From Haloglomus salinum (GTDB lineage: Archaea; Halobacteriota; Halobacteria; Halobacteriales; Haloarculaceae), in the NCBI RefSeq assembly GCF_024298825.1, contig NZ_CP101153.1, positions 682,001 through 746,000 of the forward strand: a stretch of 64,000 nt of DNA, written 5' to 3'. This document shows, in pieces, positions 41,117 through 45,736 of the stretch (position 1 is the stretch's first letter; each line of letters starts with the position of its first letter). The notes beneath the pieces are model-generated. The model did no database searches. It saw nothing but the letters and a program-made list of their open reading frames with translations, and was not told where the DNA came from. The translations under genes and the position numbers were made by a program.

Positions 41117-41938
41117 ATGGAGGTCACCCTCCTCGGAACTGGCGACACGACCGGCACGCCGACACCGGGCTGTTCATGCGACACCTGCGAGGCGGCCCGC
41201 GAGCGCGGCGTCGAGCGCTCGCGCTTCTCCGTCCACGTCCACAACGAGCGGACCGGTGAGTCGCTGCTCGTCGACGCCAGCCCCGACCTCCGCCAGCAGT
41301 TCCTCGACCACGACGTCGACCTGCCCGACGAGGTCGTCATCAGTCACATCCACTTCGACCATCTCGACGGGCTGGGCAACGCCTACCGGCTGTTCCCGGA
41401 GGTCCCGGTGTACGCCGCCGACGAGACCGACCCGGAGACCGACGAGAGCGTCGCCGGAACGGTCCGCCGACGCTACGACTACCTCGACACCGTCGTCGTC
41501 GAGCCCCGGACCCCGTTCGAGCCGTTCGAGGCCTGCGGGCTGGAGCTGACGCTCGTGCCGGTCGACCATCCGCCGCTCGTGTGCTACGGCCTCGCCATCG
41601 AGGACCCCGAGACCGGCGCGAAGCTCTCGCTCTCGGGTGATACGGGCTACGACATCCCCGCCGAGTCGCTCGATGTCCTCCGGGACCCGGACCTGCTGCT
41701 GGCCGATGGCATCGTCCCGGCGCACCTCTGTGAGTACCACCCGCTCGGTGGCGCCGACGAGGTCGACGGCGAGTTCATGACCTTCGGCACGAAGCACATG
41801 ACCTTCGAGGGCGCCCAGCGCCTCGGCCGGGACCTCGATGCCGACGAGACGCGCGTCGTCCACATCTCGCATTTCGTCCCGGCCGAGGAGGCGTTCGAGG
41901 AGCCACTGGCGGTCGACGGGGAGCAGTACGTCCTGTAG
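41117..41938 (+). CDS. MBL-fold metallo-hydrolase, PhnP-like
   Basis: 273 residues. Begins MEVTLLGTGDTTGTPTPGCS with Cys19, Cys21 and Cys24, as in PhnP-type proteins that bind an extra zinc. The metal motif SHIHFDHLDG gives His77, His79, Asp81 and His82. Later ligands include His195-region VDHPPLVCYG and Asp in LSLSGDTGYD, with a final HISHF near 255. PhnP is a cyclic phosphodiesterase, but archaeal homologues vary, so only the fold and metal centre are supported. No phn genes are nearby. Confidence 0.85.
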   Translation: MEVTLLGTGDTTGTPTPGCSCDTCEAARERGVERSRFSVHVHNERTGESLLVDASPDLRQQFLDHDVDLPDEVVISHIHFDHLDGLGNAYRLFPEVPVYAADETDPETDESVAGTVRRRYDYLDTVVVEPRTPFEPFEACGLELTLVPVDHPPLVCYGLAIEDPETGAKLSLSGDTGYDIPAESLDVLRDPDLLLADGIVPAHLCEYHPLGGADEVDGEFMTFGTKHMTFEGAQRLGRDLDADETRVVHISHFVPAEEAFEEPLAVDGEQYVL

Positions 41939-42121
41939 CTCAGAACGGCCGGGACGGGGCCGAGCCAAGGCTGGGGCGGGGCTGGGACGAGGCTGGGACG
42001 CCATGGTTGCCAAGGTTCTTGCGTCGAGGGCCGCTCTGTACAGGTATATGATTTCTCTGACACTTGTTGTGGGGAAGCGGACCCCTGTCAACAGCCACCC
42101 CGGGGCCGTCCGGGGAGACCT

Positions 42122-43183
42122 GTGAACCCGAGCCGGGTCGACTCCATCGTCGACCTGACGTACGGCCTGCTCATCGCGGCCTCGGTCGGACTCATCGTGG
42201 TCGCCGGGAACACCGTCGGACTGGCCTTCGGCTTTGGCGTCCTCCTCTCGTTCATGCTCCACGTCGTCTGGAAGATGGCACGGTTCGACCCGAACTGGAT
42301 GACCACGGAGGTCCAGCGAACGGTCGAGGAGACGGTCGACGAAACCGTCAGCGAGACGGTCGAGAAAACCGTCGGTGAGACGGTCGAGGAGAAGGTCGGC
42401 GAGACGGTCGAAGAGACCGTCGATGAAACCGTCAGCGAGACTGTCGAGAAGACGGTCGAAGAGACCGTGGACGAGACGGTCGGCGAGACGGTCGAAAAGA
42501 CCGTCGATGAAACCGTCAGCGAGACTGTCGAGAAGACGGTCGAAGAGACCGTGGACGAGACGGTCGGCGAGACGGTGGAGAAGACCGTCGACGAAACCGT
42601 CGGTGAGACGGTGGAGAAGACCGTAGAGGAGACCGTCGGCGAGACCGTCGAGGAAACGGTCGAAGAGACGGTCGGTGAGACGGTCGAGGAGAAGGTCGAG
42701 GAGACCGTCGAGAAGACCGTGGAGGAGACCGTGGGCGAGACGGTGGAGAAGACCGTCGACGAGACGGTCGAGGAGAAGGTCGGGGAAACCGTCGAGAAGA
42801 CGGTCGAGGAAACCGTCAGCGAGACAGTCGAGAAGACGGTCGAGGAAACCGTCGACGAGACGGTGGAGGAGAAGGTCGGGGAGACCGTCGAGACGACGGT
42901 CGAGGAGACGCTGGGTGCGCAGGTGGACTCGAAGTCCGGCGAGTGGGAGGACCGGACCGAGGAAGAGGTGTGGGACGACGAGGCGGCCGACGGCGAGTGG
43001 GAGGACGAGGACGAGCGGGAGGTGTGGGAGGACGACGAGGCGAGCGACAGCGAGGGAGAAGACGAAACGAACGACGACGGATCGGGTGCGACGAACGGCG
43101 AGGACGATGACAGCGACGAGGACGATGACAGCGACGAGGACGATGACAGCGACGAGGACGCGGACGACCCGGAGGACGCCTGA
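42122..43183 (+). CDS. Membrane protein with about 50 tandem tetrapeptide repeats, coupled to PiT
   Basis: 353 residues from a GTG start. Two transmembrane helices (about 10-30 and 32-50) are followed by a region in which Val occurs at exactly every fourth position from residue 64 to 260, in units of the type V-[EDGS]-[EK]-[TK]. This is 50 uninterrupted units, encoded by a 12-base periodic DNA repeat at about 42308-42914. The C-terminal 85 residues are acidic, with three copies of an 18-base repeat (about 43103-43158, DDDSDE units). The stop overlaps the PiT start (TGATG). No family recognised. The helix would present a highly charged rod at the membrane; a link to phosphate transport is inferred from coupling. 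Confidence 0.8.
   Translation: MNPSRVDSIVDLTYGLLIAASVGLIVVAGNTVGLAFGFGVLLSFMLHVVWKMARFDPNWMTTEVQRTVEETVDETVSETVEKTVGETVEEKVGETVEETVDETVSETVEKTVEETVDETVGETVEKTVDETVSETVEKTVEETVDETVGETVEKTVDETVGETVEKTVEETVGETVEETVEETVGETVEEKVEETVEKTVEETVGETVEKTVDETVEEKVGETVEKTVEETVSETVEKTVEETVDETVEEKVGETVETTVEETLGAQVDSKSGEWEDRTEEEVWDDEAADGEWEDEDEREVWEDDEASDSEGEDETNDDGSGATNGEDDDSDEDDDSDEDDDSDEDADDPEDA
42308..42914 (+). repeat. 12-bp tandem repeat array inside the membrane-protein gene
   Basis: About 50 in-frame units of 12 bases, mostly variants of GAGACGGTCGAG, GAAACCGTCAGC and GACGAGACGGTC. Synonymous differences (GTC/GTG, ACC/ACG, GAA/GAG) show the array is old enough to have diverged in codons while keeping the amino-acid pattern. 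Longer identical blocks of several units recur, as expected from duplication by slippage or unequal crossing over. Confidence 0.85.
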
Positions 43184-44358
43184 TGGTCGACCCGTTGCTC
43201 GTCGTCGGCGTCCTCGTCTCGATGTTCGTCGCGTACAACATCGGCGGGTCGACGACCGGGCCGGCGTTCGGGCCGGCGGTCGGCGCCGACGCCATCTCGA
43301 AGACGGCCGCCGCGGCGCTGATGTCGGTGTTCTTCTTCCTCGGGGCCTGGACTATCGGTCGGAACGTCGTGACGAAGCTCGGCACGGAGCTGGTCGCCGA
43401 CCCCGGCGTGTTCACGCTGGAGTCGTCCATCGCGGTCCTGTTCTTCATCGGCGTCGCGCTGCTGATGGGGAACCTCTTCGGCGTCCCGGCCTCCACCTCC
43501 ATGACGGCCGTCGGCGCCATCGCGGGACTGGGGCTCGCGGGTGGTGTGCTGGACTTCGCCGTCATGGGGGAGATCGTCATCTGGTGGGTCGTCTCGCCCA
43601 TCATCGGCTTCTGGGTGTCGCTCATCATCGGCCGGTACTTCTACGCGCGGCTCAACCGGATGATCGCGATGGAGCGCAGCACGGGCCCGCTGCTCGATGT
43701 CGACCGTTCGGGGCCGGTACCGGTTCCGCGCGTTCACGAGACGACCAACCGGCGTGAGCTGTACGGGACGATAACGGTCGTCGCCATCGGCTGCCTGATG
43801 GCCTTCAGCTCCGGCACGTCGAACATCGCCAACGCTGTCGCCCCGCTGGTCGGGAGCAAGGAGCTGGCGATGAACCCGGCCATCGTCTTCGGCGGCATCG
43901 CCGTCGCCATCGGCGCGTTCACCATCGCCCGGCGGACCCTGGAGACGATGGGCAGCGACATCACCGAACTGCCGCTGACGGCCGCCATCGTGGTCGCGTC
44001 GGTCAGCTCCACGCTGGTCGTCTTCCTCTCGACGCTGGGTATCCCCGCGAGCTTCGTCGTCATCGCCACCGTCTCCATCATCGGACTGGGCTGGGGCCGC
44101 GCGACCCGACCGATGACCGTCCCGGAGGCAGTCACCGCCGAGGACCCGCCCAGGGTATCCGTCGACGCGCTGGCCGCCGACGAGGAGGGCGAGGAACTGC
44201 CCCCCATCGGCGAGGAGGAGCCCGACGGACCCGACGCGGGCGACCTGTTCAACCCCGCGACGACTGCCCGGGTCGTCCTGATGCAGAACGTCGTCCCCGC
44301 CATCGCGACCGTCGGGGCGTATCTCACGTTCCGGTTCGTCCCGATATTCGGGTTCTGA
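43183..44358 (+). CDS. pitA: Inorganic phosphate transporter, PiT family
   Basis: 391 residues, about ten membrane helices. PiT signatures appear in both halves: AYNIGGSTTGPAFGPAVGAD near 17-36 and FSSGTSNIANAVAPLVGS near 205-222; a further repeat motif is GNLFGVPASTSMTAVGAIAG. A cytoplasmic loop rich in Asp/Glu lies at about 320-360. These are low-affinity, cation-coupled phosphate uptake proteins. The ATG overlaps the stop of the repeat-protein gene by one base, so the two proteins are likely made together. Confidence 0.93.
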   Translation: MVDPLLVVGVLVSMFVAYNIGGSTTGPAFGPAVGADAISKTAAAALMSVFFFLGAWTIGRNVVTKLGTELVADPGVFTLESSIAVLFFIGVALLMGNLFGVPASTSMTAVGAIAGLGLAGGVLDFAVMGEIVIWWVVSPIIGFWVSLIIGRYFYARLNRMIAMERSTGPLLDVDRSGPVPVPRVHETTNRRELYGTITVVAIGCLMAFSSGTSNIANAVAPLVGSKELAMNPAIVFGGIAVAIGAFTIARRTLETMGSDITELPLTAAIVVASVSSTLVVFLSTLGIPASFVVIATVSIIGLGWGRATRPMTVPEAVTAEDPPRVSVDALAADEEGEELPPIGEEEPDGPDAGDLFNPATTARVVLMQNVVPAIATVGAYLTFRFVPIFGF

Positions 44359-44449
44359 GGGCGTCACCGGTTCCCGGCGACGGAGCCCGTCCCGGACCCC
44401 GGCGGCGCGAGTGAGCAGCGTTTTGCCGAATCCGACCCCAGCACCGCCA

Positions 44450-45736
44450 ATGGTGTACGAGCTGAAGCCACCGGTCGAGGGGTCGCCGGGGCTGCTGATG
44501 TTCACGCACAAGGAGCGCCCCTACTTCCTCGACCCGCCCGAGCCGCTGGCCCGGCGGCTGGTCGCGCTGAAGGAGCGGTACGTCCTCGGGTTGCAGTGGG
44601 GGGCGTACCACGCCGACGTGGGCGAGACGCCGTACGTCGACTTCCAGATGGCCTGCCCCGGCACCGTCGACTGGGCGCCGGGCGCCGACCCTCGGCTCGT
44701 CGAGATGTGCTCGCGGGACTTCACCCCCGGCCGCTTCCGGCCGATTGACGTGCCCCAGCAGTGGGACGTGTTCAGCGTCGGCCACCCGATAACCATCAAG
44801 CGGTACTCGGAGCTCCTCGATGTCGTCCGGGAGTGCTTCGACCGCGGCGTCGACCTGGACGTGCTCCTCGTCTGTGCGGTGCCGGAGCCGCCCGACGACC
44901 TGGACGGCTACTGGGACACCGCGTTCTTCGAGAAGTACGACGCCGACTTCACCGACGCCGAGCGCGAGCATATCGACCTCGGGGTGCCGGTCGAGGCGTC
45001 GTTCGGCGACCGACCCCTGCATCCCATCCCGAACGAGGTGTTCCCGTACCTCTACAACGCCGCACGCGGGTTCGCGCTGTTCTCCCGCGAGGAGGGCCAG
45101 TCGAAGGTGGTCCACGAGGCGCTCTGCTGTGGGACGCCCGTGGTCGTCCACGAGGAGCTGAAGGGCGGCGGCCGGGACAAGCTGGACGAGACGAACTCGC
45201 TCCAGTTCGGCGACGTCGACGAGGCCGCGGACGCCTTCTGCGCGCTCGCCGCGGGCGACGCGCCGGCCTTCGACCCGGAACCGCTCCGCCGGGAACTGGT
45301 CGAGGAGTTCACCGCCCCAGTCTTCGAGGAGCGGGTGCGCGAGGTGTACGCCGACCTCGGACGCCCGTACGCGGGCGACCTGGAGACGACGGACCTGGCG
45401 TTCAAACTCGGGAGCCACACGGTCACGCTGCCCGAGTCGATGCGCTCGGGGAACACGAACGACCTGCGCTCGCGCGAGGCGTTCGTCCGGTTCGTCGACG
45501 ACAGACTCGACCGGACGACACCGCTGGCCGACCGCGCGACCGCTCGTCGGGCCGACGCCGAGGCGACCGTCGAGGCGATGCGCGAGGCGGGTCCGGAGGC
45601 CGTGGCGGGGCGCGTCCTCCGGGCGGTCGACCGGCGGGTGCCGGTCCAGCTCCACCGGACGGCGGCGCGCGCGTACCGGCGGGTGACTGGTGACGGGACG
45701 ACCGACGAGCCGGCCGGCTCCGAGAGCCGGAGTTAA
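44450..45736 (+). CDS. Glycosyltransferase-like protein
   Basis: 428 residues from MVYELKPPVEGSPGLLMFTH. The C-terminal part has the donor-binding pattern of GT-B enzymes: ARGFALFSREEGQSKVVHEA then LCCGTPVVVHEEL, with the Glu-x7-Glu spacing typical of GT4-like folds. The N-terminal half is less recognisable. Likely transfers a sugar from a nucleotide donor at the cytoplasmic face. It leads a putative cell-surface glycan cluster, with a deacetylase gene 25 bases downstream. The start at 44450 follows the AT-richer GTTTTGCCGAATC. Confidence 0.75.
   Translation: MVYELKPPVEGSPGLLMFTHKERPYFLDPPEPLARRLVALKERYVLGLQWGAYHADVGETPYVDFQMACPGTVDWAPGADPRLVEMCSRDFTPGRFRPIDVPQQWDVFSVGHPITIKRYSELLDVVRECFDRGVDLDVLLVCAVPEPPDDLDGYWDTAFFEKYDADFTDAEREHIDLGVPVEASFGDRPLHPIPNEVFPYLYNAARGFALFSREEGQSKVVHEALCCGTPVVVHEELKGGGRDKLDETNSLQFGDVDEAADAFCALAAGDAPAFDPEPLRRELVEEFTAPVFEERVREVYADLGRPYAGDLETTDLAFKLGSHTVTLPESMRSGNTNDLRSREAFVRFVDDRLDRTTPLADRATARRADAEATVEAMREAGPEAVAGRVLRAVDRRVPVQLHRTAARAYRRVTGDGTTDEPAGSESRS

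Follow-up and report, generated by a model that had tools for sequence, protein, structure and literature searches.

Why should a permease gene of a halophilic archaeon be preceded, with overlapping stop and start codons, by a gene whose product repeats valine at every fourth residue fifty times over? The question is raised by a locus of Haloglomus salinum within the 64,000-nucleotide stretch of DNA analysed here (the window; RefSeq assembly GCF_024298825.1, contig NZ_CP101153.1, positions 682,001 to 746,000 of the forward strand), in whose coordinates all positions are given. An initial annotation had described the first gene as encoding 50 tetrapeptides in strict succession, framed by two membrane helices and an acidic tail, with its stop codon overlapping the permease start, and all of this holds to the letter: valine stands at residues 64, 68 ... 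260 without a gap, and the hairpin, the tail and the TGATG overlap are where they were said to be (Table 1).

Table 1. Features of the tetrapeptide-repeat gene ("tetrad gene") and the adjoining permease gene
Feature	Position	Strand	Basis
Membrane-anchored tetrapeptide-repeat protein	42122..43183, stop included	+	ORF, 353 aa, GTG start
Two-helix membrane hairpin, residues 2-54, family-defining	42125..42283	+	Conserved 65-aa domain; AlphaFold2 helices 2-27 and 29-53 (model beginning at residue 2)
Signature WKMARFDPNWM, residues 50-60, membrane exit	42269..42301	+	No variation at W, K, M, D, P, W, M across the aligned family
50 tetrapeptides V-[EGDS]-[EK]-[TK], residues 64-263	42311..42910	+	Sequence; low-confidence AlphaFold2 alpha-helix
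Acidic C-terminal tail, residues 264-353	42911..43180	+	Sequence; nearest relative (L002) has a shorter tail
TGATG stop/start overlap of tetrad gene and permease (translational coupling)	43181..43185	+	
PHO4/PiT-superfamily anion permease, CysP-like, 391 aa	43183..44358	+	PF01384, 146.6 bits (cut-off 33.7)
Permease N-terminal signature GGSTTGPA; TmPiT has GANDVANS (Asp to Thr)	43243..43266	+	6L85 alignment
Permease C-terminal signature GTSNIANA; TmPiT has GANDVANA (Asp to Asn)	43813..43836	+	6L85 alignment

The GTG start of the tetrad gene is backed by an [MV]NPxRVD N-terminus that is conserved among the homologues. A conserved hairpin domain with the family motif WKMARFDPDWM makes up residues 1 to 65; in it, D6, D10, Y13, G14, H46, W49, K50, M51, D55, P56, W58 and M59 (numbered from N2) are invariant, and from the charges around it, with R5 before the hairpin, K51 and R54 after it and none in the loop, we infer an N-in/C-in topology. 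In the DNA, the array is called by Tandem Repeats Finder at 42316-42910, and the acidic tail contains a perfect 18-bp tandem repeat (encoding DEDDDS, 43099-43160) that is unrepeated in the nearest relative and is a recent expansion. An antisense open reading frame (42088-44511, 807 aa) was considered as a rival gene and dismissed as the mirror frame of the acidic gene. Upstream on the same strand lies a metallo-beta-lactamase-fold hydrolase gene (41117-41938), for which no recurrent link to the tetrad/permease pair was seen.

It had been considered that the array might be a strain-specific repeat expansion, and this is ruled out by the distribution of the hairpin family, members of which are found in 60 of the 109 genomes of the window's own family (Haloarculaceae) and, in a sample of the phylum, in 41 of 53 Halobacteriales genomes but in 0 of 242 genomes outside that order. 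Some 200 loci were matched in GTDB; the 80 listed all come from haloarchaea or from uncultured archaea of the same setting, with that of Haloglomus halophilum the closest, and the pair with the permease is present also in Halobacterium salinarum (locus L154), a species that can be handled in the laboratory. The family can be read directly from these genomes, and a search of Pfam and NCBIfam with the hairpin family returned no model (Pfam gave no worthwhile match, NCBIfam none), while RefSeq plasmid records label its members "hypothetical protein". Viral contigs yielded one partial, unrelated-looking match, solved structures yielded weak matches only, to low-complexity or designed helical proteins, and the literature searched for this haloarchaeal gene and for coiled coils of four-residue period gave nothing specific. 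The middle region of CdrL (PF24252) scores 37.4 bits on the array, above the Pfam cut-off of 27, but this match, which covers 28 of 77 positions, seems to be an artefact of composition. Identity with CdrL was rejected, as the N-terminus is a membrane hairpin and not a ribbon-helix-helix, and the best CdrL_M match in the genome is another gene (G000:C1:1736266), the product of which has no tetrads. Since the model passes its curated cut-off on the array (42122-43180), it is a likely source of misannotation. DUF445 and other Pfam matches to the array stayed below cut-off and were taken as composition matches, and the NCBIfam matches to GvpQ and type III translocon proteins, far below cut-off, were rejected.

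The array itself carries marks of constraint. Its units are VEET (12), VEKT (10), VGET (10), VDET (8), VSET (4), VEEK (4), VQRT (1) and VETT (1), which are encoded by 30 distinct 12-mers, and the valine codons are GTC in 41 cases, GTG in 8 and GTA in 1. Positions 1 and 2 of the valine codons vary at 0 of 100 sites, compared with 37 of 300 for the other three codons (Fisher P ~3e-5, the units not being fully independent). Because there are so many different 12-mers, and because the first two valine positions are fixed while the third varies, the array is, judged by its sequence, more than chance or slippage. The same register is found throughout the family. In long members, valine occupies 1607 of 1740 positions (92%) when the register is counted in steps of four from the conserved W-M that marks the membrane exit, and in 128 non-identical members 3709 of 3982 consecutive V/I/L/M spacings (93.1%) are exactly 4, so that the initial annotation was right in calling this period neither a heptad nor a hendecad. 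The layers of an array number from about 8 to 64, and the unit varies at its three remaining positions; the unit sequences depend on the clade (SDTVSKEVEETV, TEEVTESVSDKV or, in L010, AEKAEEAVEEK), and the four-residue spacing therefore outlives the sequence. Among close relatives, array indels are multiples of four residues in 397 of 438 gaps, a count biased by the shared history of the pairs, by alignments that favour matching valines, and by 12-bp slippage, which also gives multiples of four. Several tetrads survive in even the shortest members, and in short members they run directly into 3-4-3-4 heptads (EVxERVDRRPR) in a segment that ends with RRPR.

It had been proposed from the window that the tetrad protein may be paired specifically with a PiT-superfamily permease, and the gene neighbourhoods bear this out. 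By coordinates, 36 of the 65 copies in the window's family have a listed permease no more than 2 kb away; after nine more permeases were added from flanking DNA, a PHO4 permease adjoins 45 copies, and 20 have no permease nearby. Adjacency by chance is expected in about 1% (an author estimate, from some 5 PHO4 genes per ~4 Mb genome). Among the 80 listed GTDB copies, a permease is found within ~0.7 kb of 58; 40 of these permeases follow the tetrad gene in the same direction, 17 lie upstream and diverge from it, and 1 converges with it. Stop and start overlap in about 25 of the 40 same-strand pairs. Homologues are thus not consistently found away from PiT genes, which would have spoken against the pairing. 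Ten Natrialbaceae loci among the listed GTDB matches have the order permease, tetrad gene, universal-stress-protein (USP) gene, second permease. Clusters of two different permeases, a USP gene and a tetrad gene (L063, L178 and L180; L140, L148, L151, L153, L158, L160, L161 and L163) suggest a multi-subunit or dual-permease system.

It is likewise directly visible that the tetrad gene and two clades of permease are inherited jointly. In a tree of 144 permeases, the linked ones fall into two distant clades with unlinked permeases between them, and the label "next to tetrad gene" needs 10 changes, compared with 37.8 after shuffling (0 of 500 shuffles as low). The tetrad protein occurs in 49 of the 50 genomes that have the window's permease clade and in 11 of the 59 that lack it (109 genomes, counts not corrected for phylogeny), and several of these 11 carry the second linked clade; in a few genomes (e.g. 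G024, G116, G118, G119) the tetrad protein is present and neither linked clade was detected. The co-occurrence persists where the genes are far apart (e.g. G006, G061, G017), and within one genus (coded g12) a single genome, G096, has the tetrad protein, and no other has the permease clade. When the neighbours of unlinked copies were inspected by eye, they had mixed functions, and no alternative partner recurred beyond close relatives. At one locus (L039 in G104), the permease beside the tetrad gene seems truncated or decayed, with 37% of the tree columns filled. As far as gene order and co-occurrence can tell, the linkage of the tetrad family to PHO4/PiT-superfamily permeases is real, and the three gene orders together with the joint presence within genus g12 argue for repeated joint gain or loss of the pair. 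It is thus very likely that the tetrad protein is a partner of the permease.

That the permease transports phosphate, as the initial annotation assumed, was not upheld. The protein matches the TmPiT structure 6L85 (5.6e-13) and belongs to PHO4, its signature regions being duplicated and inverted as in PiT/PHO4 and CysP proteins (TCDB 2.A.20), but the aspartates of the GANDVANA motifs, which are reported to be essential for phosphate transport (PMC5840216), are missing from both of its signatures. In the sulfate permease CysP of B. subtilis, the same aspartates are reported to be Gly and Asn (PMC5840216); the window permease shares the Asn in the C-terminal motif, whereas it has Thr in the N-terminal one. 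Its top NCBIfam model is CysP (NF053884) with 163 bits, under the equivalog cut-off of 400, and PitA scores near noise; in a control, TmPiT segments likewise favoured the CysP over the PitA model, if less lopsidedly, and the CysP-like affinity is therefore suggestive. As both aspartates are changed, the CysP score is below cut-off and the control leaves the affinity at that strength, the substrate could be phosphate, sulfate or another oxyanion. Canonical GANDVANA motifs are likewise missing from the genome's four further PHO4 proteins (L181-L184). The PitA that is described in the literature for Haloferax volcanii is a haem-synthesis protein and not this permease.

As for the structure of the array, AlphaFold2 was run on the monomer, as had been proposed, and returned helices 56-169 and 183-270 after the two membrane helices; a helix was thus obtained, but with poor confidence (pLDDT ~37-55, pTM 0.19), and short members also gave helices of low confidence. 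The array is probably alpha-helical, and since short members pass from tetrads into heptads, a helix together with an oligomer would be favoured. Valine and threonine are weak helix formers, and for this reason and because of the strongly negative net charge, disorder is possible. On an alpha-helix, a period of 4.0 produces a steep right-handed stripe with a pitch of ~39 residues. Right-handed coiled coils (hendecad 11/3, pentadecad 15/4, YadA 19/5) also have periods above 3.63 and hence a right-handed stripe, but in the tetrad array the period is exactly 4.0 over 200 residues, whereas in coiled coils 3.8 is the extreme seen, ~3.9 the expected limit and 4.0 outside the accessible range (eLife 2016, PMC4786415). 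The array therefore lies beyond the known coiled-coil periods of ~3.33-3.9 (limits from PMC4786415), within which the heptads of short members do fall, and either it is something other than a conventional rope or the limit does not hold. It is improbable that the array is one unbroken helical assembly whose period is truly 4.0 residues, packed beyond the stated coiled-coil limits and serving as the stalk in a novel class of permease accessory subunits; such an assembly would have one hydrophobic layer per turn and be strongly right-handed or locally pi-helical, with a pitch of ~59 angstrom by simple geometry.

The low AlphaFold2 confidence would also fit an extended, largely disordered acidic bristle that hydrates the membrane surface, holds complexes apart or acts as a cation buffer near the permease, with the four-residue spacing then stemming from a 12-bp origin. 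The composition beyond residue 60 (D+E 42%, K+R 6%) and the differing array lengths of near-identical relatives (353 and 321 aa) speak for such a bristle, but invariant valine codon positions 1 and 2 beside varying synonymous sites, a register kept despite units so unlike each other, and the transition into heptads speak against it, and we consider it rather unlikely. The long helices of the AlphaFold2 monomer could alternatively be taken at face value, as a single isolated charged alpha-helix that serves as a rigid monomeric spacer and does not self-associate. Known single alpha-helices have plenty of E and K in balance, whereas K+R is about 6% here and T/V are poor helix formers, and a conserved hydrophobic residue at each fourth position suggests a packing surface, which makes the isolated helix very unlikely.

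It is highly improbable that the array is low-complexity sequence driven by slippage and that little in the protein apart from the hairpin has a function: the wide range of lengths and the expansion between close species would be expected of slippage, but not the retention of the array in nearly all members across many families, with several tetrads even in the shortest, nor the constraint on valine at the codon level. Doubt of another kind concerns the partner, as the tetrad protein could be a general membrane-organising factor of haloarchaea, whose linkage to the permease is incidental synteny inherited in some clades. Unlinked copies do adjoin unrelated housekeeping genes, but the gene order takes three forms, the linked permeases come from two distant clades, and the genes co-occur even without linkage, so that we hold this to be scarcely more probable.

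In the best explanation, to which we give a little less than an even chance, the 353-aa protein serves a CysP-like PiT-superfamily permease of the Halobacteriales as its dedicated accessory subunit and has a cytoplasmic stalk; we propose tentatively that this stalk, formed by the array, associates with itself and acts in regulation or as a scaffold. The hairpin would sit beside the permease with both termini inside, and the array would leave the membrane as a long acidic alpha-helix on the cytoplasmic side, where its valine stripe, with one valine per four residues and the neighbouring threonines, would spiral right-handed and pack on its own copies or on another helix. The run of short members into an ordinary heptad coiled coil suggests that oligomers are formed. 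The most speculative step is that the stalk may cluster permeases or relay a signal to them, and USP might, also speculatively, act as a nucleotide sensor. There is a precedent in the PhoU-like DUF47 proteins (PF01865), which have an accessory role beside PiT permeases. The tetrad protein is also a non-transporter gene product next to a PiT-family permease, but it has no sequence relation to DUF47, and a search for PF01865 found no member in the window's genome and none among the Pfam matches of the tetrad protein.

With these findings, an uncharacterised, order-wide haloarchaeal family gains a specific, testable partner, and the substrate of a permease group that is annotated as phosphate transporters is put in question. 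All five PHO4 proteins of this genome are without canonical motifs, and the annotation of haloarchaeal PiT proteins as phosphate transporters may call for a second look. The arrays are natural proteins with up to ~60 strict four-residue layers, at a spacing outside the accessible range of current coiled-coil theory, and one solved array would tell whether the limit on the coiled-coil period is real.
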